A DNA stretch of 64,000 bases from Apostichopus japonicus (Eukaryota; Echinodermata; Holothuroidea; Aspidochirotida; Stichopodidae): positions 26,594,501 through 26,658,500 of the forward strand of contig NC_092568.1 in NCBI RefSeq assembly GCF_037975245.1, given 5' to 3'. The position numbers and the translations under genes are program-made. Numbering within the stretch: the stretch's first letter is position 1; every line of letters starts with the position of its first letter. Positions 3,001-38,200 of the stretch are shown here, piece after piece. The notes under the pieces were generated by a model. It saw only the letters and a list, made by a program, of their open reading frames with translations. It was not told the DNA's origin and made no database searches.

Positions 3001-6000
3001 GTTTGATGGAACATTGGTACTTTGAAGTCTATATTGGGACCATATTTGGCAATTGTTATTAAGATTGTTATTGAGATTTTCATACTGTTAGGAAAATGAA
3101 GAATGCTTTCCCATGTCATGGTATATCTTAGTGTGAACTGAGTGTACCTTAGTGTGCACTGAGTGAGTGGTCTTAAATCTTTGGGTTTGAGGTTGGCTGA
3201 CTGCACAATAGGTATCAACTACTGTTGCACTGATATTGCAAATATCCAATATTTTAAATATCTGCTGATACCAACCCAACACCGATAGCAATTATTATAA
3301 AAACTGTTATCTAACGTGAGGCCATATCTGTGTACAATCCCTTTTCAGTTAAACTTGCCTGTTTTGATCTTAAATGGCACTACCATTTGTTCATTCAGTG
3401 TTGTTTGATGCTAGTATTGACTTCTTAATATGACTGAATAATAATAAAATTGTGAATGATTGGTGTTTTCTTTTTGTTCTTTTGCTCCATCCATGCCTCC
3501 CTAACAACAAACAACTAATATTCACAAAAAGGAAGAAACACCCTCTCGCCTGCCCCCCCCCCCTTCCCCTGCCACACACACATAAAATAAATTTGACCAT
3601 CAGTGTGAACTATTAATATTCTAGTAATATACCAAGTCATGAGTAGATAAAATTTATATCACAAAAAGCAGTTATTAACCAGATAAGGTAATCTTCAATT
3701 ATGTATCTTCAAATGTATATATATATGTATATTACATACGTAGCTGCCCTAGGCCCTTGTAAAGATTACCATATACCAATATAACCATCTACAGATTAAA
3801 ATATGAACAGAAGACAAAACAGGTAAACTGTACCTCTCCAAGGTGAGCTAGAAATGCAATACTTTGTACTGTTTTTCCGAGTCCCATTTCATCAGCTAGA
3901 ATGCCATTAATGCCGCAGTCATAGAGGTTGATTAACCAGTTCATCCCGACCAGCTGGTAACTCTTCAGTTTGCCCTGAAATATCTCAGGTTGAGCAAAGT
4001 TAGATTCAGACTTCAACACTGGGTTTGACAGGCTGAATTCTGAAGAAAATGTCAGTCAAAAACAGAGAAAAAAGGAACAAGATCTTAAATTAAATGAAAC
4101 AGTCGGAAACATAGCCAGATGGTGTAGATATTATGGTGCCTTTCCACTGCAGGGGCTTAGTGATTTTGGTACTGAGGTCAAAACATTATTCTAAAACTTT
4201 AATAACTATCATCAACTGATTATTTCTGTAATTCAGGATACAGCCATAAACTTCTCAGATAGTTAACAATTTGACATTGTTGATGTATTCCTTTGATAGC
4301 CAGGCTTGTCAAGAGGGAAGGGATGAGGGGACAGCTCTAGGGGCCAGGGCATGAAGAATAAGGTATTTTTATTTTCATAACATGGATGAAAACAAAGACT
4401 TCAAACAGGGGCCTGGTGACATATTTGTCCCTTGGGCGGGACATGAATCTCGACTTGACCGCTGATAACACAAAGAAGTGCTTAATAAAATATGCAATTT
4501 CTTTCGTAATATCTACATATATACCTCTATGCAGCAAGAATAATCAAATAATCAAAAGAACCTACTTAATTCTAGAAATGCATTCTGGGCGTCAAATTCA
4601 CTCATGTCAGATTCACAGGCCTTGTAAGCATTCGTCACATTTTGTAGTGCTTGTAGTTTCATCCATTCACTGTCTGTAAGAGAAATGTTACAAACAGTAA
4701 GGAAGAAATGCAATCTAAAACAACGAGACTAATTCATGATAGATAGTTACATGCAACTGTAACGTGGTGCTTTCAGTGAATAGAATTACAGGTGTAAACC
4801 TTTAAAGTGTTTACCATAAATTTATTTTGTTTACTTTAATCTTCCTAACATAAACATTTCCTACAACTGGCTAATTAATTGTACAAGTAGGGTTTTGTTC
4901 CTCCACCCCCCCCCCCCCCCCCACGCAAAAGCAGCTGTTATCATGGTAACCACAAACTCTATTCTAGAAATGACACACTTGCAAAGAATTTTACAGAAAT
5001 TACTGTTTATTTTATAACTATATACAGTATTTCATTTGTTTGGATTGTCATTAAAAAGTAATATTAGTTTAGATCAGAAAATCTGATACTACAGGAAAAA
5101 GAATAAGGTGCCTTTTATTGCATTTTTGTGTAGGTCTCCAAAAACCTATACTTGCCTAAAAGAGAAAAGAAAAAAGAAGCATTGTCTAAATTGCATTTCA
5201 GGGTCAAAGATGAAACCAAATCACTGTAGGTTACCATATTTGATTGATTGTAATGACAAAAACTTGGTAGCCTGAATCCTAAAATTTGAAACATACAACG
5301 AACATGTTAAGAAACTTTCATCCAGACTTCACCCTACCATAATCATCTCCTTCAACATCGACCAGAACACCCCCTTTGACAGCTACTTCCCTCCTGTTAA
5401 GGGTCGGCTCCTCCAGACGACTTAGAATTCGATTTTTCTCATCATCGCCTTCTCCCGTTAACTTTCTACTCATGAAGTGAGCATACAACTCTGTTTGGGT
5501 AATGAGGTAGTTTAATTTTCTCTGTTGTTTCTTCGCCTTTGTGAAAAGAAGAGAAGCATTATTAAAAAAATAAATTTCGATTGAAAACATTTCAATTGCC
5601 AGAATTTTGAATGATTTGAAAGTATCACAGGGCAGACATAATAGGATCAAATTTGACTACATAATTAACACACCATTTTGCATAATTAAGTGAAAAACAC
5701 AGCCATCTCCTACCTCTCTAATTTCATCATCCAACCGCCTCTGCTCCTGGGCTTCCTTTTCTGCCCTCTTACGATGTTCCTTCTCCACCTTGTCATAATG
5801 CTTCCAGAAAGCTGTCATCTCCCTGGTCAATCTTCTTGCCCGATATGGAGTCTCTTTGCAAGTTCTCTGTATTTGTATGGCATGCCTTCGTAACTCCTTC
5901 TGACAGGCCTGAGCTTGCTTTCGACAATTGGTGAGGATCGTGTTGTGGACGGATATTCTGTGTTTCTGAGCCTTGAAAGATGAAATTGAAAAGTATGCTG

Positions 6001-9000
6001 CAGTCGCCGAACATTAAAGGAAACATGCTATCAAAACACAACTTTTCAGCTTCTACTTTCTCTTCCATTCATCTGACAAGTTGCTGTAATAAGTAATTTT
6101 TACTCTTATTGTAGCAAACTTGACATGTATCTCTGTTGTTGAGCACAGAAGAATAGAATACTCAACATAAATGACACTAGAGTTTGCTAATAGTCCACAT
6201 AAATGGTCAAAGAAATATTTCTTAAAGTCAGCTAAGCTAAACAAGATATGTGCTGTGGATTTTCAAGACATATCAGGTCCAATATGTTTAATACTTTGTT
6301 TCGTTATGTTTATCTGCAGGCGTACGTCATTTTCAAAAAATTTGAGGAAGGTTTTTCCAGAATCAGTTGGCTCACTGTAGAAATATTTTTATAGCCTGGC
6401 TCACAACTCTTACAATCATCTATGAAATGAAACTGATGTATGTATTTGTATGTATGTATTTTAGATCCTAGCTCCTGCAAGCAGGAACTCGCGAAGAAGC
6501 CATCATTGGCTTATCAAAGCCGCAAGCTGACCGAAGTCAGTCTCTTAGATTCATATTTAACGTCCATGATTATTAATTGTCAACAACTCTGTAACTGGAC
6601 GACATACATTAATTTTGGAGTGACTCAAACTCGGGACCTTATGATTGTAAGGCACCGGCTTTAACCACTGAGCTAACCATCCTAAATGAGAGGTATTCAG
6701 CTGACAGGATGAGTATAGTTAATCCGTCTTTTTTACTCCATGTACAATCTGACTTTAAACAGATGTAAAGCATTTCATGATACCTTCGGAATGTCTCGTT
6801 TTGATATCGCCATCCAAATGCGTTTCCTACGAGTATCCACGTCCTTGATTGAGTTGTACTTTCGCCCAACCGTGTCCTGAAATACAGCGACCGCTGTGTT
6901 GGATGACTGAGGTGCTTCATTGCTAACAGGAATGATGGCTAAGGTTTCAGCTTCCAAAACTGGCGTTGAGATTTCCTGTGCCTTGGTAAATGCAGGGATA
7001 GACTGAAATTCTATATACAGTATCTTTTCAAAATGTGGTTAGATGGCATGAATGTTACATTTTACCTTGGCAAACCTTTTAATTAAGTATTGCCTGGTTT
7101 TACATACTTTTAATCATGCAGTTTCAATATACCATGTAATGATTCCTTATACATTTCTTTCAATACCTTAAAAGTGAGACATCAAAATGTGACTTTCAGG
7201 TATATTGTTGGGGGAGGGGAGGGAGGGGATGGGGGAGGGCAGGGGGGATGGGAGGGGGAGAGGGCTTCCTACTGTAGTCTTCCTTTCGCATTAATAAATA
7301 GCTGTAAATATACACTAACAATTCCTGCATTACCTGATGTATTGCTTTAGTATTCACCCTTCCTAAAAAAGGGGGTAACTCAACTCTATAATCTTTTCCA
7401 TGGTTTCTACAGTACTCCAAAATCCCAAGAATTAAACTTGTTTCAATATTCAAATGTAACAAACTTAATTATCAGAGTACAAACAAACTGAAGTCATTGT
7501 GATTACCTGCTCAAGTGTTTCCTCCTTTGGTTTCTTATCAACTGTGGTTGTGGGTGCTGCTGGTAGTGGTGGTGGTAGAGGTACTGTTGGTAGTGGTGGA
7601 GGTGGTGGTGGGGATGGAGGGGCAGGAGGAGGAGGAGCAGGTGGTGGTAGTACTGGTGGTGGAGTTTTTGGTTGTTCCGCTTTAACCTCAGCTACATCTG
7701 GCTTTATCTTGTCACTTGGTTTATCTTTAACAAGAAAAGTTTCTTTGTCATCTTTGTTTTTTTTATTTTAAACTATTGATGATCATATCCGTGAAGAAAT
7801 TAAAACAAACATATATAAGCGAGCATTTCTCGGTTTATATAAGTATAAATCAGTAAATGAATAATATATGAAAACTTAATGGAAAGTTTTGGACAATGGG
7901 GAAAAGAACAAAGGAATTTCAGGCTAGAATTAAACTTGAAGCAGTGATCCCAGAGGTCACTGGTACAAATCCTATTCTAGCAATAAATTTCTTGCTCTTT
8001 TCCATTTTCATAATTTTGAACGGTATTTCTGTTCCTTCGCCTTTCTGCTCGTCACAACCTGTAACAATTGAGAACTATTTCACACCGTTTACCAGCTGTG
8101 TTTAGACTTACACTTTCAGGTAATTTGCCTGGTTATGCCTATAGATTTGCAGCCCCACTCAGATGGTGGGTGCACCCTAGGTACAGAAACACCCACCCGC
8201 ATTTAAATCACCTGCATATTTTAGTTAAAATAAGATAAAGCACAACATCAATCCATATTACACAAGCCTTGCTGTTATAACTGCAGTCATAACAATGGCT
8301 GTTTTGAAACCAAAACAAAGCCAAAATAAAAAAACTGCCAACATGGTTTTCAAAAAACACTGTGTGCGAAGACAGTTCATATATCTAAGCATAGCAGGAT
8401 ATCTTACGTTGCAAAACTTAAAGCTGCTTCCACACATGCCACTATCATCGTATAATGGGGAAAAGGGTCTGTAACTTACCATTTGTTTTCTTCTTTTCTG
8501 GTTCTTCTTTTCCTTGTGAACTGAGAAACTGACTTTGATGATCCAAAAATTTATCATAGAAAGACACAAGACTTGAGCCATAGTACATGTACTGTTTCAA
8601 CTGTTGAAGATAGAAAACAAGAAAAAAAGGAGAAAAAAATTAATGAGGTGAGGTGATTATATGATGATCCTTCAATTTTAAACTTAACTGGAAGTTATAA
8701 ACCTTTCGAAGATATTTAAACCCTGTGAAAAATACAACATTTATTAGGTTAAATAAAATATATATACCAAAGTAAACTCCTTGATTATCCCATTGAATTG
8801 AGAATCTGCTCTAACAACAACATGGTCGACATTTTATAACATTTTGTCCAAAAACATAAATGCGACCAATGAGATACAAGAATGTATAAGAGCATCCATC
8901 CACTTCTCCTTTGTATCTTTACTGCTAAGATACCTCAGTAAGAAGTATGATGTTGTGCTCTGAATCCCTTCAAAGTTACAATAGTGTTTGCCAGCATACT

Positions 9001-12000
9001 GTATGACAACAAGTTACAGTACCTTTAATCTGTTTAAAATTACAAATGTTTGTTTTCTACAAAATGTGTTTGACTGGGCAGGAGATATAAAGAAGATGAC
9101 CAGTTGTTTTTACCCTTTCTAAATTTCGATATAAGTTTTTCTGTTAAATTTGTCTGCCTGGGTGGAGGCATTGTGAACATAACCAGTTGCTCTTTATGCT
9201 TGCAGATACTTCCTCATACAGCTAGGAAGTTACATCAATCCAGCATTACACGCAGCCTGGAGTTGAAGAATAATATCTGAATCAGATACAAAAAAATAGT
9301 AAATGACTCACCTCTGGATCTGAGTAAAACTGTTTGGTATATTGCTTCTTTAGTTTATGCACTCTTAGCATTTGTTTTAACTCCCATTTATTCATAGGTT
9401 CCTGGTCATCTGAGTCTGAAGATTCTGATGAATCACTGAGCAGGAGATTCTGTCGAGGGTCAAAGGTCAATATGCTTTAGTACCTCTACTTAAGGGGGAT
9501 TTCTTTGCAGCTGTTGCAGCTCTTTTCTCTTTTTGACAATGTGCCTAAGCCAAACATTTCAAGTGTGTAACATGCTGCATGTAACTTGCTAATCCTATCG
9601 GAATTCACACTCTTGGAGGTAAATATTGAAAGACTATCAAATAATATTGGAATCCAGATGGTGTTGACTTTATCAGCGACCAATATTATACTCAGTATCT
9701 AACCAGAGTATGTACAATTCCCCTCAGTCCTCTTGCATGATATGGATATGTATTCATCATGTACTACTACTACTACTGGTTCAATCAGCTGATTCATGAC
9801 ACAAGCTGCACAATCATCACACTATTATTTTTAAGTCATTTATATTGCTTTAACAATATGAAGTCATACTGTCAAGATAAGCCTTTATTCAGAACTTCAC
9901 CCCCCCCCCACCAACCCCCACAGCCAAAAATGAGGCAACTTTTCTTTCCAATTACCTAGGTAGACAGCAGTGTTTCCTCTAAGAAATTTCCCATTGAGTC
10001 AAAATGGCTAATATCTGAATATTTGACTCACCCCGTTCTGGGGTCTAAGGGGAGGGGTAAAATTCCAGGAAAATTATTTTATTGAACCAAAAACACAATC
10101 GGTCAATGTTTTCGTGACTTTTCAGGGTGTTACATTTTGCTGACAGTATTAGTACCAGGGGCGTAGCAAGGATTTTCAAAGTTGTAGGCATGACTATCTG
10201 AGCAGAGCGCCACCATCAGTTGGCGCGGAGCGTACAAGAAAATTTTTAGTTTTACAAACCCCCCAGATGGCCAGAAACGGCCCTTCCCGAGTGTTCTTTT
10301 TGGTTCCCTGGCCTCTTGGTAAATTGAGACACCTCATTCAATATCACTTTAAACCAAAAAAACAAACGAGTTAAAAAAGTACTTAATTCAATACTACATA
10401 ATGTATTTAAAATTAGCAAGGTACATGTACAGAGTAAGCCAGTAACAACAGGCAACAAAGTACTGCAGCTCTATAAAGTCTGTTAATCAACGATAAGCTT
10501 GATTGTGGAATGTTTCTCAACTGAAATATTATCTGTGTAAACGGATTTTTAACTAGATTAATTAGTTAAAAAACTGACAAGATCAGATCCTAGTCTTTTT
10601 CGGCAGGTAGAGTGTTGATTAAAACGGCACGCGATAGAAATGATAGCTTAGATGACAGAAGAATATGTCACCTAATTTAGCATGTTCTTGCTACGTTCAT
10701 TTCAATAGTTTTTCCTGTCTAGGCTCTAAAACTCGTCCAGCAAGCTTATGGATTTGAGTTATGGGTGTTTAAGAAAAAAAGAAAACTTGGCCAAAAAGTG
10801 TAGGCCCGGGCCAACAGTGCTACATACTAGCTACGCCCCTGTGTACTAAACATGGCCAATCCAATGTCTGATTTTTTAAAATTGAGGCATGGAACCCTGA
10901 GTTTTATTTAAACGATGATTGCTAAGTAATAATAAATTAGTTCGTTGCATATCCCCTTATTTTTACAAGCTAAATTTGGCTCAAATATAGTGCACCACTT
11001 GCAATGCAGGGTAGGAATTTAGATTTGGCTTTGGGGGATATTTTGGAAAATGAAAAGTTAAAACCGCCCCCTTAATGTATTTACGAGGGCTTTTTTAAGG
11101 TTTAAGGGGGCGCTTTTCCAAAGTTCAATATGCTGTTTACGGAAAAGATCAGGATCACAGAGCTCCCAACTGACCCGCAATTCGCGGGTTAGACCCGCAT
11201 TCTAACATCCAAACCCGCTGACCCGCGCAAGTGTCCAAAAACTCACATTGTAATTGTCAAGTATACATAAAAAAATTGCATCAAATTTTGACTTAGCAAC
11301 CATCATTTCTTTAGCATTTAGCATAATAGAGTATAAAACCCTCCTTTACAGCATCATTTGAACCTCAAATTTTAGCCTATATTTCTTTTCGTTGGGGAGA
11401 GCAGCGAACATTTTCATGCCACGGGAAAGAATGAATTATCACCTACTATTCAATTTATTGATGTTACACACAAAAAAATGCATATTTCTCAGAAAATTTT
11501 GGGTGACAAAAGCCATTTTAAGTGCCGCCATTTTACATGAAGGCATCAACAGGATTCCAAAAAAAAATCAAAAGGGGGAGGTGGACACCCCCTCCCCTTA
11601 TACCCCTTCTCAAGAGTTGGGAGCTATGGGATCAAGTAAGCACATTTACCCTCTTCCTAGTTAGCTGCGACCGTATAGCAAATTCATTGAAAGTTTAATT
11701 GCCAAAATTTGCGATCGTTTAGCAAATAATGTCAATCCACCGAATATATGACGAAAAAACCAAGAACCCATCAACTGAAATAGAAAACACAGGTTTACTT
11801 CTACTGAAGGTGCCCTTTCCTTTAATCATGTATTTTTTCGTGTGTGGATAAAATCACCCACCACCAAATACGAAACTATTATACCGCTGAAAAGTAATAT
11901 ATAGAAGTTAAAACCTTCAATCCATCGCCACAGCAACGGTGTACGTAAAATACAACATTCCCTCTCTAAGACATAGCACATACCTTCCAAACAACTGCCC

Positions 12001-14960
12001 ATTTCGCGCGACGATAGCAGCAAGGAAAGTATGTAAACAAAGCTACGCAAAGTATTGTTATTATTTTGTTTTTGCTACTGATGGTTAGGCTACATTTCCC
12101 ATTGACTTAGTGTGGTTGTTAGGCTAACATGTCAAAGATTGCAGTTTTTCTTGGATATTTTTATTTTTTATTTGCGACACAACTTGAGCGAATAAACAGA
12201 TGGCTAGGTTAGAGTTCCATGTAGACTTAGTTTGAAGTTAGGCTACCATGTGGTCGGAGGTTTTTGGGGATTTCAGGTTATTGTCGCTGGTACTGAAATT
12301 GCTTAGTGGCACGGGAAGTTCCTGGTGATTGTGCGCAACCCTCCCGCACTGCTTCAAATTTGATCAAATGTGATGCAGGATTGTGAGAACGGTTTGTGCA
12401 ATTTGCGCTGCTACTGCAAACCCTAGCTGAAGCAAAAAGCTTGTCACAATTAAATTTACACAGTCACCTAATATTACGAGGGCGATTTACTAATATTTCC
12501 TTTTCGCACTCGCAATTGTGCTTTCGGAGGTTTTTTTAGCACTTGCTAGGGCGAATCGCCCGTCGCCCCCGCTTATTTCTGACCCTGTTGCAATGTAATG
12601 TAAGGTAGGCTATACAGATATTATATTTAGTACACTGGTATTGCGAACCATCGTAGTGTAGGCAATGCATCAGTGCACGTGCACGTTACGTTATATGATT
12701 TAGCTTTACAACAATCGAGCTAAATCTATGTGACTGTATAGAAAAACAGTGCTACGGTAAAGTTAACGATCGCTAATTTAACATTTCTGACGATAAATTG
12801 GAAACACTTTACAGTAATAACTTCTTCACTTCAAGTTGAAGTTCTGAACACCATGCCTTTTGAAACGATTTTTTTCTATTCACACTGTATAAAATTCAGG
12901 AGAAAATGAAACCCTCTTTTTTTTTTCTCTCTCTCTGAACGCCAGTGCGTCAAATCGGCAAGCCATTGCGTCAAAATCGCGTCATAGCAGAAACACTGGT
13001 AGACAGCCCAGTATGTACAATATGATATGGTTCTTATGTTTGTGTAATTAATTAAAAGAGGAACTATGACATAGATGTATGATCTTGGAAGCATGAAATG
13101 GTTTGTTGGGTGCACCAACATTGGGAGGAAAATGTAAAAGTGGAGTTCTCCTTCTTACCTTCAACCATCTTCGATTTTTCTTAACTTTTGAAAAGTTGTA
13201 CAGTTTTCTCTTCTCAGTTTTCCTTTCTATAAATGATAAGAGAAGCAAGTTTATGTCTCTCTTCATCAAGACTAATAGCAGTCTCTCGTGTTTGATTTTA
13301 ACAAAACTTACTGCTGCATATTAAACTACAATTGACCCAGCTAAGATGCAGTATGAGATATTTACCTCATATTAGTATAGGGTTTAATGATGCAATAATT
13401 AATGAACTTGACTTGATTCCCAAACATCTCGTCAGCCATATATACATTGCCATATTGTATCGATTACAAGTAAAACATGACCGGAAAAATGTTGTGAAAC
13501 TTTTGACTTTCATTCTGTTATTGAAATGACTAGTAATGCAATGATATATGCACAATGAAATGTGAACTTAGAACTAAGTAAGCTTCAAAACAATTATCAA
13601 GAACTACTTATAATGCAGTGTTCCAATGCAGAAACACACCCATCTTTGGGATCTATAGACATGACACGTACATGCTTACCTCCAAATGAAACCTAAGATT
13701 GTTGTACTCTTGCTCAACCGTCCTAGAGTTCTAATTTATAAACTGCTATACAACACCTATGAGGTCTGAAGTGATGAAGAACCCCATTTAATGAATCTAT
13801 ATATGATATAGTGTGTAGTATTCTTACTGTGCATATTATGAATTGATGTCTAACGACAATCTTTATCATATAAATGGCATTGATGCTTGGATCTTAAAGG
13901 GAGTGAAGACTCGCGCACAAAAAACGACTGATGCCGGTTATCTGACCTACTTTTGAATGAGGTGTAACAGAAGTGTTAGACACCACCATCGATCCCAGAA
14001 AATACACACACAGCTTGCTACCATTGGTAATTAGACACTAGTGTACAGTCAATACATGACGCTACGGTCAATACCCACAACACAGTGTACATAGCAGCGA
14101 TGGACATCTCAGGTACAGCTAAAGACAACAAGGTAACACGTTTCATTACTGTCTGCATTTGTAGCGACAAGACAAAAACTCCACTTGCAAGAAACGGGAT
14201 GTTATCTTTTTCAGAGGCGGCACGTGGTTTGGGGGGAGTCTTCAATGCCTTCAAAGGAACCCAGTCAGCAAAACTATATACTTTCTTTCAAAAAAGAAGA
14301 AAAAGTAACAAATTGACCAATACCTGATCTAGTCAAAGGCAGTCCATTTATAACTTTAAGGTTGTCTTTTTTCCGTTGTTTGATTCTGTCGTCCTCCTTT
14401 TCGAGTTGGCTCTTGGGTACAAACTGTCTGCCAATTTCTTCTACAAACAAGGGTTCTACTTTGCTATCTTTGGGTTTACTGTCAACCGAACAGAGACGAG
14501 GAAGAAGTGTTAAATAGAGAGCTCAGTACAGTGAGTGAAGTCAATGCCCTTATGCATGAAAAGGAACACAGACCTTGGGACAAAAATCTTCACTCATATA
14601 TTTCAAACAATTTAGTATGTTCTGCTTAAGATGATGACGAAAAAACCATTTAGTTTAACTGCTAACAAAATAAGATACACAAAGAATGATGGCTTGTACA
14701 GAAACATAAACATTATAACAGAGATTTGGTCAATCAGTACTTTAACCACTCAGATTTGTTTTATGATGTGAAAACTTTGAATGAACCTACTTTGCTTTCT
14801 CGATGGTTCTTTCCACCTCATTCAAGAAGGTGTCCAGCTGCAAAGCTCTTTCCAGCCTTTGGAATTGTAATGGCTTAGCCAAAGTGACTCCGAACACAGG
14901 CCCTTCGGGTAAAGTCGGGTTAGAGGTAACAGTACCTTCATCTTGTATCTTCTTGTCCAT
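1..14960 (-). CDS. INO80: INO80 chromatin remodelling ATPase, N-terminal half, 16 coding exons (3' part off window)
   Basis: INO80 is the catalytic SNF2-family ATPase of the nuclear INO80 complex, which slides nucleosomes and exchanges H2A.Z. I rebuilt 16 exons covering about 802 residues; vertebrate INO80 has about 1550. Seen in order: an N-terminal block [17 protein letters not shown] (about residues 32-48), a [15 protein letters not shown] block (about 116-130), an acidic serine stretch followed by [15 protein letters not shown], a proline-rich exon (about 218-290), the basic DBINO/HSA-type region (about 345-515), Walker A GLGKT (about 603-607), DEAQ motif II (about 712-715) and motif [13 protein letters not shown]. 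All introns are GT-AG and every codon phase matches across junctions. The start Met aligns with the short leader before the conserved LAKPL block. The reading frame is open throughout. The window ends inside LKPFM, so the second RecA lobe is missing. The neighbour TMX1 is head-to-head. Confidence 0.95.
211..358. repeat. 47-48 bp tandem repeat, 3 copies, INO80 intron
   Basis: Three diverged copies of a unit starting atgtgcaacatctc and ending near atgtatcagcttta, at about 213, 261 and 308. It lies between INO80 exons 16 and 15. There are no spacers, so this is not a CRISPR array. Confidence 0.85.
494..611 (-). CDS. INO80: INO80 coding exon 15
   Basis: Encodes [20 protein letters not shown] then [19 protein letters not shown], which matches INO80 directly after motif III. 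Acceptor tttcag, donor GTCAGT. Phase 0 in, 1 out. Confidence 0.97.
1336..1420 (-). CDS. INO80: INO80 coding exon 14, ATPase motif III
   Basis: Encodes [20 protein letters not shown] then [18 protein letters not shown] is SNF2 motif III. Acceptor cctcag, donor GTAAGT. Phase 2 in, 0 out, joining exactly to LWALLHF in the next exon. Confidence 0.97.
2210..2418 (-). CDS. INO80: INO80 coding exon 13, ATPase motif II
   Basis: Encodes [18 protein letters not shown] ... [19 protein letters not shown] ... [11 protein letters not shown]. The DEAQ box is the INO80 form of Walker B, and both acidic residues are present. Acceptor tcgtag, donor GTGAAT. Phase 0 in, 2 out. Confidence 0.97.
2817..2912 (-). 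CDS. INO80: INO80 coding exon 12, ATPase motif Ia
   Basis: Encodes [20 protein letters not shown] then [12 protein letters not shown]. It contains SNF2 motif Ia (PASTL). Exactly 32 codons, phase 0 at both ends. Acceptor ttgtag, donor GTAAGA. It was found only by reading the minus strand between the flanking exons. Confidence 0.95.
3834..4039 (-). CDS. INO80: INO80 coding exon 11, ATPase Walker A
   Basis: Encodes [20 protein letters not shown] and then [18 protein letters not shown]. This is SNF2 motifs Q and I, with the ATP-binding GLGKT intact. Acceptor cttcag, donor GTACAG. Phase 1 in, 0 out. Confidence 0.97.
4566..4673 (-). CDS. INO80: INO80 coding exon 10
   Basis: Encodes [20 protein letters not shown] followed by [16 protein letters not shown]. 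It corresponds to the ALKNAENAYHIHQARTRSFD linker just before the ATPase. Acceptor cttacag, donor GTAGGT. Phase 1 in, 1 out. Confidence 0.9.
5338..5536 (-). CDS. INO80: INO80 coding exon 9, end of DBINO
   Basis: Encodes [20 protein letters not shown], continuing FMSRKLTG. This is the strongly conserved [15 protein letters not shown] signature of INO80. Acceptor cacaaag, donor GTAGGG. Phase 0 in, 1 out. Confidence 0.95.
5714..5971 (-). CDS. INO80: INO80 coding exon 8, DBINO core
   Basis: Encodes a long basic helix with [16 protein letters not shown] and [20 protein letters not shown], nearly identical to the DBINO signature. This segment binds actin, Arp4 and Arp8 and contacts linker DNA in the known complex. 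Exactly 86 codons, phase 0 at both ends. Acceptor ttcaag, donor GTAGGA. Confidence 0.95.
6434..6682 (-). mobile_element. tRNA-derived SINE in INO80 intron
   Basis: On the minus strand the head reads GGATGGTTAGCTCAGTGG. The Pol III A box TAGCTCAGTGG is at 6675-6665 and a B-box-like GAGTTTGAGTC at 6632-6622. The head resembles a tRNA: an anticodon-like stem CCTTA/TAAGG sits between the boxes. The 3' part carries a small hairpin (CTCCTGCAAGCAGGAA on the plus strand) and an ATACATACATAC tail. The tail is shared with a second copy near 34.2 kb, which supports a dispersed SINE family. Confidence 0.8.
6784..7002 (-). CDS. INO80: INO80 coding exon 7, start of DBINO/HSA region
   Basis: Ends with [18 protein letters not shown], which matches the ARRRKVWLSIVKKELPK block at the start of the INO80 DBINO/HSA region that carries actin and Arp subunits. 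The first half is a poorly conserved linker. Acceptor tttcag, donor GTATCA. Phase 0 at both ends. Confidence 0.92.
7507..7724 (-). CDS. INO80: INO80 coding exon 6, proline-rich linker
   Basis: Lies between the conserved N-terminal blocks and the DBINO region. About 40 consecutive residues are mostly proline, with runs of up to six. The DNA is a (CCA/CCT)-rich trinucleotide tract, which is why the plus strand shows GGT/GGA repeats. Flanking residues are charged ([18 protein letters not shown] before, [15 protein letters not shown] after). The phases (1 in, 0 out) fit, so it is probably translated. Confidence 0.82.
8480..8600 (-). CDS. INO80: INO80 coding exon 5
   Basis: Encodes [20 protein letters not shown] and a lysine/glutamate-rich tail. 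It corresponds to the LQQYQYYSAGLLSTYDPF region of vertebrate INO80. Acceptor caacag, donor GTAAGT. Phase 0 in, 1 out. Confidence 0.9.
9312..9449 (-). CDS. INO80: INO80 coding exon 4
   Basis: Encodes [16 protein letters not shown] followed by [17 protein letters not shown] and FYSDPE. This is the acidic serine patch plus the conserved helical block that follows it in INO80. Acceptor cgacag, donor GTGAGT. Phase 0 at both ends. Confidence 0.9.
9960..9967. repeat. Left target-site duplication GTAGACAG
   Basis: Exact 8-bp match to 12999-13006, directly flanking the outer hAT-like element. Confidence 0.85.
10156..10841. mobile_element. Inner CAGGGGCGTAGC element, 686 bp
   Basis: Perfect 12-bp terminal inverted repeats, CAGGGGCGTAGC at the left and GCTACGCCCCTG at the right. 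These are typical hAT-type ends. No clean 8-bp target duplication is visible: the flanks attagtac and tgtactaa look more like inverted copies of each other. No transposase open frame. It lies inside the outer 3-kb element. Confidence 0.75.
11158..11628. mobile_element. Innermost MITE with AGCTCCCAACT ends, 471 bp
   Basis: The inverted ends CAGAGCTCCCAACT and CATAGCTCCCAACT (right end read inward) differ at one base. A 6-bp direct repeat GGATCA flanks the element at 11152-11157 and 11629-11634. It contains a cluster of CCCGC/GCGGG words near the left end. It is the third nesting level. A 90-codon open frame inside it (11392-11664) runs past its end and looks random. Confidence 0.72.
12075..12260. 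repeat. Dispersed repeat, copies here and near 36.3 kb
   Basis: The segment GCGACACAACTTGAGCGAAT, AAACAGATGG, ... GTTAGGCTACCATGTGG at 12174-12255 is closely matched at 36278-36358. A shorter internal version (gttaggctaca ... gacttagtgtggttgttaggc) lies at 12083-12130. It is probably part of the 1.58-kb element family. Confidence 0.65.
12999..13006. repeat. Right target-site duplication GTAGACAG
   Basis: Exact 8-bp match to 9960-9967, directly flanking the outer hAT-like element. Confidence 0.85.
13159..13226 (-). CDS. INO80: INO80 coding exon 3
   Basis: Short exon encoding [21 protein letters not shown]. It matches the conserved INO80 block LYNFSKLKKSRKWLK. Acceptor ttatag, donor GTAAGA. 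Phase 1 in, 0 out. Confidence 0.9.
13894..14256. mobile_element. MITE with TTAAAGG...TGAAGACTC ends
   Basis: Imperfect terminal inverted repeats: cttaaagggagtgaagactc at the left, and tttgaaggcattgaagactc read inward from the right. A single matching end, ttaaaggcattgaagactcg, also occurs at 50764-50783. About 360 bp, non-coding, in the intron between INO80 exons 2 and 3. Confidence 0.55.
14324..14478 (-). CDS. INO80: INO80 coding exon 2
   Basis: Encodes [14 protein letters not shown] ... INGLPLTRS, a charged linker that I do not match closely to vertebrate INO80. It is accepted because it is open, has a good acceptor (ttgacag) and donor (GTATTG), and its phases (2 in, 1 out) fit both neighbours. 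Confidence 0.78.
14791..14960 (-). CDS. INO80: INO80 coding exon 1 (start codon)
   Basis: Begins [11 protein letters not shown] and contains [15 protein letters not shown], the conserved INO80 N-terminus. The ATG is at 14960-14958. A possible 3' splice site (ttgtaag, then GTC) just upstream suggests a separate 5' untranslated exon. The donor is GTAGGT after phase 2 (AA, joined to T of the next exon). Confidence 0.88.
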
Positions 14961-16910: not shown

Positions 16911-19900
16911 GTAAGGGAGTGTTACTGTTCCTTCTCGTAGTTCTCGCATAACGCTCCATGTTGTTAGGCTACTAGTACTAGTACTACTACTATGTAGCAT
17001 TGTGTGCGTTAATTTTGACACGTCGCCTAAACGTACTGCATCAGTGTCAGTTATTCTGTGTATAGACCTATGCCTAGGCCTAACATTAGAATAAAGATTG
17101 TTTATGCTGGGGAAATGCTAGGCGTCCTATACAGCCTAGGCTATGATATACGGTAATATTGGCTTATGTGGGAAATGAAATTCAGAATTAAAGAAGTGCA
17201 GGAGTGAATGGAATTGTAGAGGACAAGTTCAGTGAGGGCATAGTTAAGAATAAGATGCTTATTTACAGATTGCAAAGAATGATTAAGACATAAACCAAGG
17301 CCATGGCACAGCAGTTTGTGTAGCAATCAAAGCCATCTTTAAATTGGTAAATCAAAATAGAATAAAACTAATTATCCACTAAAGAGCCCGTGTAAGAAAA
17401 TGTGTAAAAGTAAGAGGGCCTGACGTTTGGATCCTAGTAGGATCTTCTTCGGAGGCTGAATGACAAGTTACAGTAACAGAAGGGACAATACACATACAGA
17501 ATACTGACAGGTTAATGAGCCCGGTGAACACAAAGAGAAAGATGTAAGAGGATTAGTAAAACAAGGGGTGGAGAGAAGAAAGAAACCAACAGGGGGAAGA
17601 TGAGAGGTAGGAGATAAACTGTAGAGGGACAGGGAGAGGATTAAGGGAAGAGGGTAGGGAGTAAACTAGAGAAGGACAAAGACAGAAAAGTGTGGAGGAG
17701 TGACAGAAGGGGCAACAAATTAAAATTTATATTAAACTTTAAACTGTGTGTAAATCTAGGTGTTATTGCACAATTTTTTTTCTGAATCATGGCTTAAGTA
17801 ACTATTTTTCTTTTGGCACACCACACATTAAGGGTTTGCAAACTTTGAATATAGTTAATAAGCTAGATTTTTTTCAGATAACCACAAAATGGACTGATAT
17901 TATGACAATGTTTTGGTATTTTAATTGTAAATTTATAGAAATCCATGATCTTATTATGGGATTATGCCACAAGTTTGTATACTTCCTTGTACAGTGTGGA
18001 AAATAGACTGCCATATACTAGCCATGGTCTAGTCCTTTAATAAAGAACAAACACAGAAATGTTTGTACCTTATATAAGCAGCTAGAACAATGTGGATGAC
18101 GACAATAAAATACATACATAGAAACGTTTCGATCCTTTTGGTGTATCTTTAAGTTTTTGTTCTACTATGCTGTATTTTTTGTACTCATTTTGTTTCTTGT
18201 AAAACGCATTGAGACAGTTGGTTTTACGCACTATATAAATTAGTATTATTATAATTATTACATTCATATATGTAGAATAGAGCATGACATTACATAAGCT
18301 TTAAAACTTTGTGCTGTAGATACCTCAAGACAGAAATAAACCAAACACCAGGAGAGTGTATGCTCTACTGATCTATTTTCTCCCTTTTCATCTTTTCAAT
18401 TACTAGATGTAAAGTGAATGTACAGTAAGCTTACTACTTAGTATATAGATTACATAGGCTTATACAGAATTACACTTACCATTACCTTACACATAAGAGA
18501 TTAAGTTATTTTAAGGATTACAACTTAGTATACATAGAGTCCTGGAAACACAGAATATTTGATACTCCTTGCAGGCTTACATAGGATTAGCTTACATAGG
18601 ATCAGGCCTAGACAAATATTTTTAAAAGTACTGGCCATTTGGCGACATCTAATCGGCTTTCTGTATAGTCATGTATTATTTGGTACTAATTCCATCAGTG
18701 CCATCAGTCAAGATTTCTTGTTGTTACATTTTGTACTTTTTATTCCACTGCCAAGTATTGCAGAAGAAGGTCCCAGGGAGATAAAAAATTTCAATATATT
18801 TTCTAAAACAATACTTCTTATTTTTGTCAATTATGAGTCATATCTTATTTCTCTTCCTTTGTTCAAGAATATATACAGTATATTTGTATATAAATATATA
18901 CGAAGTCATAAAGCTGATGCTATATCCATGCTCAAGTTGCCAATCATCTTGATGAAGATTCTCTTTTCTTGAAATGTAGCTTGTGACTTCACAACAAAAA
19001 AGCATTTAAAATATTGAGAGCAGAGTTTATTATAACATAGCAGTGCCATAATATTAAATCTAACAGATTTCAAAGTTTTTTAATAGGGACTTGAAAACAT
19101 TTAGCCTGCTAAATTGTTTGATTTTTGTCAGGGTTGTATACTTATCTTTTGGCTCAAATTCTCATATTGCTGTATAGTTTGCTTTATGTACATATGTTTG
19201 ATCTCTTTCATATTGCAAGTTATGCACCATGGTGTCCGGCCTGTAAAAGTATAGCTCCAATATGGGAGAAAGTGGCTGACTGGAGTGAGGATCTAAATAT
19301 CAAAGTTGGAGAGGTAGATGTTTCGGAACATGCAGGACTAAGTGGCAGATTCTTTGTCACAGCTCTTCCAACAATTTATCAGTGAGAAAACATTTCCATC
19401 TTTATTTTTTCTTTTAATGATTATTTTATGATGTTTTGTTATGTTGCAATGTGTTCATAAAAAAAAGGCCATCCCTACTGCATGGTCAAATTAAGTGTTA
19501 GAATTCCAAATTTGATCAGTATTTTTTTTATAGTTATATCCTAGAGGCCTTCCAATTTATTTATTACCAGACGGGAGAAAAATTTGATCAGATATTTAAA
19601 TGTCTCTGTCAGGAAAGCCTTCCATGCTGGTAGTTGACATAACTACGTATTAATGTGACGGTTTCGTTTCTATTTATACTAAACTCACATTTTAGAATTA
19701 AACAAGCACCCTGACATCTTGTTGCATACTTTGATGAATTATTCTCAATTACTTGTTGTTGTTTTCTTCGGACAGTGTAAAAGATGGAGACTTTAGACGA
19801 TACCTTGGTTCCCGTGTAGAGGATGATATTATAAGTTTCATCGAAGAAGGGAAATACGAAGAAGTAGAAAAAGTATCGTGGTGGAAACATCCAAACTCTA

Positions 19901-21920
19901 TTCAGTAGGTGGCATAATTTTAATAGAAATGTTATCATTAAACTGTTAATTACAGAACGGGCAGTATATTATCTCAAACAGTGAAGGAAGGATCATACAA
20001 ACGAAAGTTGAGGAATTTTCCCCTTCTCTCCCCCTCCCCCCCCCCCCCACCACCCAAGTTGGCTAAAAGAAAACATGGAAAGACTAAAGTCATCTCCACA
20101 GTGAGCTATATTGTATTCCTCAGTTACGACATAACTCTTTAGAAATCTTGATATGGGATTGTATGACATATATATGTGTATGTATGATATTGTTATAGTA
20201 TATTTATGGGAGGAGGAGAGGAGTAATCTTAACCTAATCTATGTTTTCTCCTTTTCTTCTCCTTTTTATTTAGAATGAATATGCTGGCATCTATTTTCAG
20301 AATATCCATGCAAGTTAGGGTAAGGATAACTGTCTGTTTGAGTTCAAGTCATAAATTCTTAACCACTGATTGCAGCAAGAATCATTTTTTTGAGCTTCAC
20401 ATATATAGCTATTTCTGATGGAGACTTCAGAAGACCTTTTCCTTGGCTCATATTGAGTTGAGGATAATGTTCATTTTCAAGCTGAAGCTCTTATTAAATG
20501 GCTGTCATCATAATTTATGTCCCTTGTCCTCTCATCTGCCATTTTCAATGCATCTGTTCCCCTTTCCTTTCATACTCTTGTTTTAATGACTTTATAAATC
20601 TGAGGAAGGTTCCGAAGAAGAATCTGCTGAGAGTGAATGAGCAGGCCCTTCTTCTTTTGTCTATAATCATGTCATTTCTCTGTGATATTGGTTAGTATTG
20701 ATTAAAAGAATACAAGCCACCATGACTTGGAGCTTGAGAAAGAAACTGTCCATAGTTATTTGAAAATACTTATAGTTACTTGATATAATTATTATTTCTT
20801 TTTTTATACAAAAGTATATTTATTCTTATTTTTTTTTAAATAGCATTAAAGCTCTTCTTGGTTTCTTCTCTGCAGGTATTACACATCAAAATGACAGAGG
20901 AATGGGGTTTCCCGTACTGGTTATCCTATATTGTGTTTGGTATAGCAACCATTGCTGCTGGCTTGCTTCTTGGGTTGGTGAGTATGACACCAACTTAAAC
21001 AGGATTTAAACAGGATGATAAAGTTGAGAATGATTATACAATCCTATTAAAAATATGACGGGAGTAGGAGCTGGGTCGGAGTGACGATGTCAGACATTTT
21101 GCCAGTTTTACACATAGTGAAGTGTTGATAACCACTGTGCTAACATTTGAGAAGGGATTATATGGAAAGAAGGGTCTGTGAGTTCAATAATGGTTATAAA
21201 GTAAAAGAGGTCATTGAAGTGGTGTTATTAAAATGATTACAGTTCTGTTAGACTGGATGTCAGACATTTAGCCAGTTTTACCTAAAGTGAAGTGTTGATA
21301 ACCACTGTGCTAACATTTGAGAAGGGATTATATGGAAGAAGGGTCTGTGACTTCAATAATGGTTATAAAGTAAAAGAGGTCATGTGAAGTGGTGTTATTA
21401 AAATGATTCCAGTTCAGTTTGACTGGATCGGAACTGCAACAGAACAGAAGTCATCAAAAGGCATATAAAGCAAATAATTTGTGTGTTTACTTGGACACTT
21501 TAATGACAACTCATCTCTCTACCTTCAAGCCTTTCATATTTTAATTGTCTAAAATTTTGCCAAACTTTGGTTTGGTGTAACAAATGTATTGGAGGATACA
21601 AATTAGTGCACTGGCGATGATGTTCTCACCATCAACCCGTTTTGTTCCAGGTGTTTGTCGTAATTGCCGATAGCATCTGTCCACCAAAACCCCCACCCAG
21701 GCAACCAATCCCCGAAGGTTTCCAGCAGCCGATGCCCGACACCAAGCGAGACGAAGATGCCCAGGATGAAGGAGAGGTTGCAGATGAGGTCATCAAGGGA
21801 GAAACAATGAAGGATGAAGACTCTTCTGATGTGAGACAGAGGAAGGTGGCAGATAAGGTCAAGGAGGGAGAAGATGGAGAAAAAGATGAGGAGGGTAAAG
21901 GAGAAGCTCAGGAGGAGTGA
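16771..21920 (+). CDS. TMX1: TMX1-type thioredoxin-related transmembrane protein, complete, 6 exons, 282 aa
   Basis: An ER membrane disulfide oxidoreductase that acts preferentially on membrane-bound clients. Exons are 16771-16910, 19220-19381, 19776-19904, 20274-20319, 20876-20977 and 21651-21920, giving 282 codons plus stop; human TMX1 is 280. Seen: a signal peptide (about 1-20, ending FCQA), a lumenal thioredoxin fold with YAPWCPACKS (active site CPAC at about 52-55, the TMX1 signature), a cis-proline loop TALPTIY, a membrane helix at about 174-200 (WLSYIVFGIATIAAGLLLGL), then a very acidic cytosolic tail. The tail holds an RQR motif (about 255-257), as in human TMX1, possibly an ER-retention signal. 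One juxtamembrane cysteine is kept (ADSIC) where human has two (ADCLC). All splice sites are GT-AG with matching phases. TMX4 is the main alternative, but the CPAC motif and length favour TMX1. Confidence 0.96.
17411..17467. repeat. Dispersed repeat, second copy near 59.5 kb
   Basis: The stretch gcctgacgtttggatcctag, taggatcttcttcggaggc is matched with a few changes at 59517-59556 (acctgatgtttcgatcctag, tagcatcttctcc). It lies in TMX1 intron 1. This is an unclassified interspersed repeat fragment. Confidence 0.65.
17540..17720. repeat. Purine-rich (G/A) tract
   Basis: About 180 bp of the plus strand is dominated by G and A (gagagaagaaagaaacc, gggacagggagaggatt and similar). It is non-coding, in TMX1 intron 1, next to the 17.4-kb repeat. 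Confidence 0.6.
18190..18265 (+). repeat. Probable 3' tail of a retroelement
   Basis: Reads aaaacgcattgagacagttg then ttttacgcactatataaatt and a degenerate (ATT)n end. This arrangement, a cgc-attgaga core, then cgc-tatataaat, then (ATT)n, resembles common invertebrate retroelement 3' ends. The family was not identified. Confidence 0.5.
19220..19381 (+). CDS. TMX1: TMX1 exon 2 (CPAC active site)
   Basis: Encodes YAPWCPACKSIAPIWEKVAD through LSGRFFVTALPTIY. It contains both active-site cysteines and the cis-proline. Acceptor ttgcaag, donor GTGAGA, phase 2 in and 2 out. Confidence 0.97.
19776..19904 (+). CDS. TMX1: TMX1 exon 3
   Basis: Encodes VKDGDFRRYLGSRVEDDIIS then FIEEGKYEEVEKVSWWKHPN, the C-terminal part of the thioredoxin fold (human: CKDGEFRRYQGPRTKKDF). 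Acceptor cggacag, donor GTAGGT. Confidence 0.96.
20274..20319 (+). CDS. TMX1: TMX1 exon 4
   Basis: A 46-nt micro-exon encoding QMNMLASIFRISMQVR, corresponding to the human segment VLMSSMSALFQLSMWIR. Acceptor atttag, donor GTAAGG. Phase 2 in, 0 out. Confidence 0.9.
20876..20977 (+). CDS. TMX1: TMX1 exon 5 (membrane helix)
   Basis: Encodes VLHIKMTEEWGFPYW then the hydrophobic LSYIVFGIATIAAGLLLGL. Exactly 34 codons, phase 0 at both ends. Acceptor ctgcag, donor GTGAGT. Confidence 0.96.
21087..21428. repeat. 170-bp tandem duplication in TMX1 intron 5
   Basis: Two adjacent copies of a unit starting gtcagacatttt/agccagtttta and ending ttagactggat/ttgactggat, at 21087-21258 and 21259-21428. They differ by only a few substitutions and small indels. 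Confidence 0.88.
21651..21920 (+). CDS. TMX1: TMX1 exon 6 (acidic cytosolic tail, stop)
   Basis: Starts VFVVIADSICPPKPPPRQPI, completing the membrane helix. The rest is Glu/Asp/Lys-rich with one RQRK motif, ending EEGKGEAQEE and TGA. Acceptor gttccag. Confidence 0.95.
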   Translation: MFVVIADSICPPKPPPRQPIPEGFQQPMPDTKRDEDAQDEGEVADEVIKGETMKDEDSSDVRQRKVADKVKEGEDGEKDEEGKGEAQEE

Positions 21921-26195: not shown

Positions 26196-26814
26196 AGCAG
26201 CATTTTGCGTTTGGTCGCCGTTTTCTACTTTTTTGACATGTCCATCGAGTTTTTTACATATATCAATCACAAAACAGCAAACTAAGATATTAGCCAAGTC
26301 TTTCCCTGCCAACAACGTTAATTGGCGAGTAATTAAGGATATTTTCAGATAATGAGAAGAGTGTCCACGACAAATTCCACAGTTAAAATTAATCGCATAC
26401 AGTTCCCCCAAAACCCACTAGTTTGAATTCAACCAATCAGAGATGCAGGTGTAGTTATGAGCCGTTGCTAAAAATAGATTCAAGACTTTGCGTTAGTACA
26501 ACCAGGGAGATGTATGGAACTCCCTGGTACAACTGCCATATAGACTGTACACAAATAAAGCATGGTGTTGTATTGCATAGGCCTATTGGTCAATGACGTT
26601 CGTAGTGTTTAAATATTCATATTATGGGCGAGGTTTTTGGGTTCTAACAGAAATATCTTGGAGAAAAACAAAGTTGAAAGTTGCAAATTTTTCGACTTTT
26701 ATGCCACCATTTGAAGTAAGATTTAAATAGATAAGCTAGTTATGTATGTCGTTATGGCATAGTGGAGTCAGCGAGGTTGAGAAAAATCATAGAAAAGGAC
26801 GCAAAATGCTGCTT
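26196..26814. mobile_element. MITE with AGCAGCATTTTGCGT ends and TTAA flanks, 619 bp
   Basis: Perfect inverted repeats: AGCAGCATTTTGCGT at the left and ACGCAAAATGCTGCT at the right. Each is flanked by TTAA (26192-26195 and 26815-26818). TTAA duplication is the mark of piggyBac-type and some other cut-and-paste elements. It has no transposase. Confidence 0.8.
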
Positions 26815-35200: not shown

Positions 35201-38200
35201 TTTTGAGACCATCTTAGCTAGAACAGGGTTTTAACGAGTGACCTCAGAAGAGAAGTTCCTCTGCTCTAGCTTATTCCTTCTTTAAGGCCTATATTTTAAT
35301 ATTTTTAACTTGAAGTATCACACTTATCATCAGAACATACATCTTGGAAGCATGAAACTCTTTGAGAAGATCCCAAACACTGTCAAAACAAGAAACGAAG
35401 CTTGTCACAGCTCACAGCCAATTTTGTCTCCGGCTGGATTTTAGACTGGTATCATTTATACCATGCATTACATATTTTAACATTGGGATTGTTCCAACTT
35501 TTGACTAGATTATGTTTATTCTGATCTACGCAGAGAATGACTGGGATATATCATAGCAACCCCAATAATTGTAAACAGACTTTAATTATTGAATTATCTA
35601 CAAATACATTCTCTTAACAACCCACTGAAGAGTTCGTTTAGGGAAGCCTCGCAAATCTAACCGCCGGTTCCGGGCCGGCGGAAATCTCGCACCCCTTGCT
35701 CATTATGCATGTGCATATTGGTCCCATGGTTGAATGCACACACGCTGGTTGCCAGCCAGAGTAATGAGCACAGCGTCCTGACAACACAAGGCTGGTTATT
35801 CTTCACAAACAATGAGCAAACTTGGCCAAGTGACCGGATTAACATTTGCGGTTTTGACAGTCAATAAAGCGGTAGTTTATGTTGCAAAGTGACTTATACA
35901 CTAAAATCCACCACTACCAAATGTCCGAGATTCAGTACTTTATATAATTCTTGCAAATCTTCCACGTTATCAAACCTCACAAATAAAATTTCTTGGGTCT
36001 CTTATGAACAATTGTGAAACTCAGCTACTCGAAAGTTCGATAAAAGCAGCCTTTACCTGGGCCTATACTATTATGAGCCTTTGTTCAACGAGTGGTACGT
36101 AACTATGAATTAAAAACTGAATCAGCCATTGCATTAAATATATGCCCCCCCCCCCCAAGAACTTCAGAAAACCCATATTGACAAACCAGAATTTAAACAA
36201 AACAATAGTTAAGCTATGCCACATATGTATGTTAAAGAGAGAACATCGACCGTAACATTGATCTCTGAAGCTAACTGCGACACAAATTCAACGAATAAAC
36301 AGATGGTTTAGGCTTGATTTTTCCATTGACTTAGTGTGTTAGGCTGCCATGTGGTTAGAGATATAAGTTACTATTCAGTGAAAATTTTACTATACGTACA
36401 TCAGTTTACAACTGCAGTGTTTACCCCTACTTAAATATCATCGTAGGCATACTGTACATGGGCTGCGAATTTTCCCAGGTACCTTGCACAAACAACCCCC
36501 CTGTCTAACACCTGTTTGTTAACATTTTTGGCACGTTTCCAAAAAACTTTTCATGGAGTAAACTATTTTGGCTCCACTCTAGAATTAATTAGGTAAGTCA
36601 GTAAAGGATCGGTAAAGTTATGCGAAATATTATCTTAGACGTTCAAGAAAAGTATATATCCCCGTAACATAAAGGTAAGTAAAACCCACCTCAAGCCAAC
36701 CGACTCCTCCGCATGAACAAAACATTCTATTCCCCATGATACATGAGTCTATACCATACAGACATAGCACGATATCAAGGCCCCAATAGCTACAGTATGG
36801 CTGTCTTTATGAAAGTAAACCTTTTAAATCCCATGTTTTAGGCCACTTGGCATGATTAACTGAATGCTAAATATTGTTTCCATGTCCTTGTAGAAAATGT
36901 CAACTTCGCAAAATACAATAAGTTGTGTTTTTGTTGTTACGTGAGATCCGTAACCGGCGAAGTGGTTAGGCTATTTACTATACACTTAACTATGGTAGGA
37001 TATTAATTTTTCCTTTTTTTTTTGGTGGAAATTCTAGAAAATACTTTCTTCCCCCCCCCCCCGCCAGATGTGGTCGTATGGTTTATTCATAAATGGGTGT
37101 ACTAGAGCCTTGTCTACATGACATAAGTTGCGTTTAGCACGATATGCCAGTTTCGAGTGAATTTTTCGAAAGTATTTTGCTCGATCCTTCGTAAAATTTG
37201 AAAGGTGTACCAACTTACTGTTCGTACACAATTGCAAATTTCTCTACTGATTTTCAGAGTAGTAAAGGACGGTTTTTTTTACGAAGTTCAAAAGTCAGTA
37301 AATGAAGTTGATAAACTTTATTTCTTTCAACTTTCTTAACCATGGAATGCTAGAGTAACATTTACACTTAAAACGGAGAAAGGATAATCACATTTTTTCC
37401 ACATTTATTTCAAATTTCTTTCACAAGAAATTATCGTCATTTGTTCAATCCTCATGATGTCTACGATCTAGCTGGCTAAAAAAAAGTACAGCTTCGCTGG
37501 AGTGCGAAAAATTCCTTACAGTCAACCGATTTTTTTTCACCTAGCTAGGTAGTTTAGGTCCTGTTCTATACAACTTAGTAGGATTATTCTAAAGTCATCC
37601 CGTATGTTAGGCTCTGGTTCACGCTTATGTGCACGTGTACAAGAAGTGAGATTGTGATTTCAGTTTTTTAGATTTTTAAATCTTAAAAATTCAGGAAACT
37701 TAATGTCCTTGCAAAAAGGCAACGAAACTTTTTGTTCCTACTTGGCCGACTGGGAAAATAAGAAAGATAGCATTTTAGATTCCTGCAATGTAAATTCACA
37801 TTTCCTTACTTATTTTTCACAGAAGTTTTGCTTCTGCAGTAGGATAAAATATGGCGTATAAACATACTATCTTTTTGAAACGTTTGAATACCTTGAGACT
37901 TAGCTATGATGTTTTGTTCAACTCACTATTGTGTTCAAATCGGCTTAGTAAAAACTTGACCGCGGCTGTGAATGTAACTGTATAGCGTGGAGGGTGGTTT
38001 GGAGAGAGTGTGCACTCAAGTGTGACTCATTATCTGCTTGTGGCTGTGCTCATTATAGCCGCGGAAAAATCCACCGGCCCGGACATGGCGGTTAGATTTG
38101 CGAGGCTTCCCTTAGCTCTGACAGCAATACTGAAATGGACACTATGGCTTGCCAATGCCAACAAAGAGGAACTTCTATGTTCCAGTAACAAAACTCTTTC

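Follow-up and report, generated by a model that had tools for sequence, protein, structure and literature searches.

Nested hAT-like DNA transposon insertions in an INO80 intron of the holothurian Apostichopus japonicus

One intron of the INO80 gene of Apostichopus japonicus consists mostly of transposons lying inside one another: an outer element contains both a 686-bp and a 1.58-kb element, and the latter in turn contains an element of 471 bp. We consider this arrangement very probably the product of four separate cut-and-paste insertions of short, noncoding DNA transposons, most likely nonautonomous hAT elements mobilized in trans. The nesting, the element ends, the target duplications and the intron boundaries can be read directly in the window (the whole 64,000-nucleotide stretch of contig NC_092568.1 analyzed here), and the coordinates, ends and flanks of the nest are present exactly as the original prediction had them, including three levels of nesting (outer, 1.58 kb and 471 bp), a further element that the outer one encloses, two exact 8-bp duplications and exact GGATCA flanks around the 471-bp element. 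The duplications occur in strictly nested order and are exact and flush with the ends at three of the four elements (8, 8 and 6 bp).

The INO80 gene crosses the region on the minus strand. Its identity, and with it the claim of an INO80 intron, is borne out by an open reading frame at 5657–6013 that matches the Pfam domain DBINO (E 8.7e-24) and, in the PDB, the INO80 chain 6hts_G (E 2.5e-27), followed in the gene by two SNF2 pieces recognized by Pfam. A query with the N-terminal part of human INO80 matches exons at 13227–13159 (E 4.7e-5) and 9452–9264 (E 1.7e-6), and the GT...AG splice dinucleotides between these matches delimit an intron of 3709 bp (9450–13158, minus strand) that runs from 13158 (GTAAGA) to 9450 (CAG). 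The intron is in phase 0, between ...NRRWLK and NLLLSD..., and the exons on either side join in phase; the donor is 152 bp and the acceptor 510 bp away from the transposon nest. Removal of the outer insert and one GTAGACAG leaves an intron of 670 bp, in agreement with the predicted remainder of roughly 0.7 kb, and insertions account for 82% of the present length. Splicing of the enlarged intron presumably still works. On the plus strand, 19125–19382 is a thioredoxin-domain exon neighboring INO80 (Pfam, E 1.2e-12), which we take to be perhaps TMX1-like.

The outer element (9968–12998) is hAT-like, apparently nonautonomous and now 3031 bp long, and would measure 756 bp without its nested insertions and one TTGCAATG copy. 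It is flanked by an exact (8/8) target duplication, GTAGACAG, read on the plus strand at 9960–9967 and 12999–13006, and its inverted ends match at 12 of 14 positions, or 14 of 17 over a longer arm. The two ends also have an 18-mer in common in direct orientation on the plus strand, CCATTGAGTCAAAATGGC at 9991–10008, which agrees at 16 of 18 positions with 12963–12980; when the two 120-nt ends were resampled 100 times, the best agreement was 15. A further copy, 78% alike, occupies 12942–12959, such that 12942–12980 carries two copies at the opposite end that form one repeat family with 9991–10008. These subterminal repeats are plausible as putative transposase-binding sites.

Inside the outer element lies a hAT-like element of 1,581 bp (11007–12587), flanked on the plus strand by the exact 8/8 duplication TTGCAATG (10999–11006 and 12588–12595), with ends that match weakly, at 10 of 14 positions. 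Subtracting the 471-bp insertion and one GGATCA reduces it to 1,104 bp. Its two ends fold as single-stranded DNA hairpins with z scores of −1.9 and −3.3 (8 and 0 of 200 shuffles, respectively, are as good), and it contains two copies of a repeat of approximately 57 bp that are 119 bp apart (12077–12132 and 12196–12251). A relative of this internal repeat, approximately 90 bp long, is found 24 kb away at 36271–36362 (E 5.9e-8); apart from this internal piece, blastn and nhmmer searches of the window recovered each of the four elements only once. At approximately 36415, after the 36271–36362 repeat, there is a CAGTGTTTACCCCTA stretch similar to a hAT end.

A start in CA is a mark of hAT ends, and the CAG start used in the following rule is prior knowledge of hAT. 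When an exact 8-bp duplication, CAG ends and an end match of at least 10/14 are required together, only the outer and 1.58-kb elements are found in the window, compared with a mean of 0.027 in resamples (first-order Markov sequences modelled on the window as a whole rather than exact dinucleotide shuffles), of which 8/300 contain at least one match and 0/300 contain two. At 12/14 or better, the outer element alone is retained and 0/300 resamples have any match. The rule with the duplication and matching ends, minus the CAG start, returns the same two elements against a mean of 2.1 (20 resamples), and CAG ends with an 8-bp duplication, minus any further end match, return 2 against a mean of 1.9; because these looser rules equal chance, significance requires the duplication, the CAG start and the end match jointly. 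Elsewhere in the window, 26198–26811 has ends CAGCATTTTGCGTT/CAGCATTTTGCGTC that match at 13/14 and flanks CTTTAAAG/CTTTAAAT that match at 7/8; since resamples average 0.65 matches as good (maximum 3), we regard it as a candidate hAT-like element only.

The 686-bp element (10156–10841), also inside the outer element, has perfect 12-bp CAGGGGCGTAGC ends (12/12, and 13/14 over the longer comparison). If a CAG inverted pair must be exact over 12 bp and contain 9 or more G/C, the window has one, this element, and 0/600 resamples have any; if composition is left free, such exact 12-bp CAG pairs occur 3 times in the window and on average 0.375 times per resample (60/200 resamples have at least one). 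Its insertion scar is uncertain. The element has no 8-bp duplication, its flanking 8-mers agreeing at 4/8, and we give slightly less than an even chance to the reading that it is a standard 8-bp hAT that has lost its clean duplication by decay or rearrangement, or one with inverted ends that reach outward through TTAGTAC. The half-matching 8-mers are compatible with decay, but the three other duplications of the nest are intact; the flanks are inverted over 7 bases (TTAGTAC...GTACTAA) and could belong to longer ends, but no duplication is visible outside such an end. Alternatively, the palindrome may belong to the outer element itself, in which a similar stretch is found at 12623–12638.

The same flanks admit a second reading. 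hAT5 and hAT6 are classes that reportedly go back to Kapitonov and Jurka in 2007. Under these names, PMC12730594 describes hAT families that duplicate 5 and 6 bp of target, respectively, and the CAGGGGCGTAGC element may accordingly be a hAT5-type insertion with the 5-bp duplication AGTAC/TGTAC at the palindromic target TTAGTACTAA, a reading that we hold to be a serious possibility while giving it somewhat less than an even chance. The flush 5-mers resemble a hAT5 duplication with one mismatch (4/5 agree), and the inverted flanks, a pattern seen in only 14/20000 random site pairs, suggest a palindromic target site. Against this, a comparable near-match over 5, 6, 7 or 8 bases is found in 590/20000 random site pairs, the near-match and the ends required together give 1 case against 0.2 per resample (maximum 2), and the rule of an exact 5-bp duplication yields no match.

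The 471-bp element (11158–11628), inside the 1.58-kb element, has ends CAGAGCTCCCAACT and CATAGCTCCCAACT that match at 13/14 and differ in their starts, CAG versus CAT. The plus-strand duplication GGATCA (11152–11157 and 11629–11634) is flush with these ends and exact at 6/6; if 8 bp are required, the agreement is 0/8. One case in the window, this element, combines an exact 6-bp duplication, a CA start and an end match of at least 12/14, and 11/300 resamples contain at least one; an exact flush 6-mer by itself is shared by 117/200000 random site pairs. By its 6-bp duplication, the element fits the hAT6 class as described in PMC12730594 better than canonical hAT. It resembles hAT6 in the exact 6-bp duplication and the CA..TG termini beside it, and differs from hAT6 in being without a transposase. 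According to PMC10045372, 6-bp duplications are also usual for IS3EU and GingerRoot, and membership in another such superfamily would account for the length of the scar; we consider this unlikely, as the source gives the termini as always TA..TA in IS3EU and mostly TA..TA, occasionally TG..CA, in GingerRoot, and the CA..TG termini of the 471-bp element have the hAT-type orientation. IS3EU and GingerRoot were rejected on these termini. Finally, it is very improbable that there is a single 3-kb element whose inner elements are just inverted pairs arisen by chance: looser rules do match as often in resamples as in the window, but the stricter resample tests argue against chance, and duplications, ends and nesting agree jointly.

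Short inverted ends and, as a rule, 8-bp duplications are given as features of hAT elements (PMC3517528, PMC3942097), the terminal inverted repeats measuring 10–25 bp (PMC3942097). The outer and 1.58-kb elements, each with an exact 8-bp duplication and short inverted ends that start in CA (those of the 1.58-kb element being the weaker match), fit nonautonomous hAT by structure, and it is on structure that their probable membership of the superfamily is based. The predicted assignment to hAT has structural support for these two elements, and does not carry over in the same form to the 471-bp element, with its hAT6-like 6-bp duplication, or to the CAGGGGCGTAGC element, which is without an 8-bp duplication. 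With regard to subgroups, GTAGACAG fits the pattern nTnnnnAn given for the Ac group in PMC8961557, as a single insertion only, and TTGCAATG does not; neither has the central TA of the pattern nnnTAnnn given for the Buster group in PMC3517528.

Five stop-to-stop open reading frames of at least 70 aa overlap the nest, one of which (12879–13154) extends beyond the end of the outer element. None of the five matches Pfam at the curated cut-off or shows a transposase family (two have matches below the cut-off, MENTAL at E 0.059 and AmyB_C at E 0.054, and the other three have none), as expected of nonautonomous copies. A comparable known system is Mar of Drosophila, a nonautonomous hAT or hAT MITE that, as described in PMC3517528, has short inverted ends starting in CAG and 8-bp duplications and is noncoding and 0.5–1 kb long, like the elements of the nest. 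The Mar ends given in that source, CAG(G/A)GGTAGGC, are unlike those of the nest elements, and its duplication consensus is of the Buster type, which fits neither GTAGACAG nor TTGCAATG. A literature search for an INO80 intron with a hAT transposon or nested insertion returned nothing on this case, and CAGGGGCGTAGC in literature text led to unrelated papers only.

Of seven scans of viral contigs with the element ends, four gave 0 matches and three gave 3, 21 and 4 loci. The opposite end was absent at all three loci of the first of these. Among the 22 loci with the CAGGGGCGTAGC end (21 viral and one prokaryotic), the opposite end was present within 2 mismatches at 6 and, by eye, matching flanks at none, and among the viral loci with the CAGTGTTTC end it was present at 1 of 4, with flanks that by eye do not match. 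None of these viral and prokaryotic loci has both ends and a duplication. We take them, with single or paired ends, to be chance matches. The sole match to the CAGGGGCGTAGC end among prokaryote genomes (L004), a doubtful one, has one end only, and by eye its likeness stops after approximately 21 bases. At this locus, the A+T-rich end (positions 5000–5823, 37–47% G+C) of an Alphaproteobacteria MAG contig of 61–69% G+C carries CAGGGGCGTAGCCAGGATTTT; it may be misassembled or stray DNA of another animal host, and we note it as a lead only.

Other repeats in the window comprise a tandem array of approximately 28 copies of a 114-bp unit (59921–63087) and two tandem pairs, with units of 247 bp (41451–41933, 98% alike) and 170 bp (21086–21428, 94% alike). 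Rfam and tRNA scans of the whole window found nothing.

The order of insertion is given directly by the nesting, and the predicted relative order is upheld as a partial one: the outer element came first, the 1.58-kb and 686-bp elements later, and the 471-bp element after the 1.58-kb element. We propose that the outer element would have entered an INO80 intron of approximately 0.67 kb through an 8-bp staggered cut at GTAGACAG, and that the 1.58-kb element, through an 8-bp cut at TTGCAATG, and the 686-bp CAGGGGCGTAGC element would then have entered the outer element, in an order relative to each other that the nesting does not fix. The 471-bp element, last in its own branch, would have inserted into the 1.58-kb element by way of a 6-bp cut at GGATCA. 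Transposases acting in trans, from genes at other places in the genome, presumably mobilized all four. More tentatively, and with odds somewhat against it, three hAT lineages with cuts of 8, 6 and perhaps 5 bp may be nested in this one intron, in which case the locus would record the relative order of activity of hAT (8 bp), hAT6 and possibly hAT5.

Nested DNA transposons are common in animal introns, and the nest is a new example of a known and common kind of event that leaves the general understanding unchanged. Within that frame, the INO80 intron is a clear worked example of growth from 0.67 to 3.7 kb by successive transposon insertion, in which the order of events is partly fixed by the insertion scars; the nest provides end sequences for at least four nonautonomous families in this genome.
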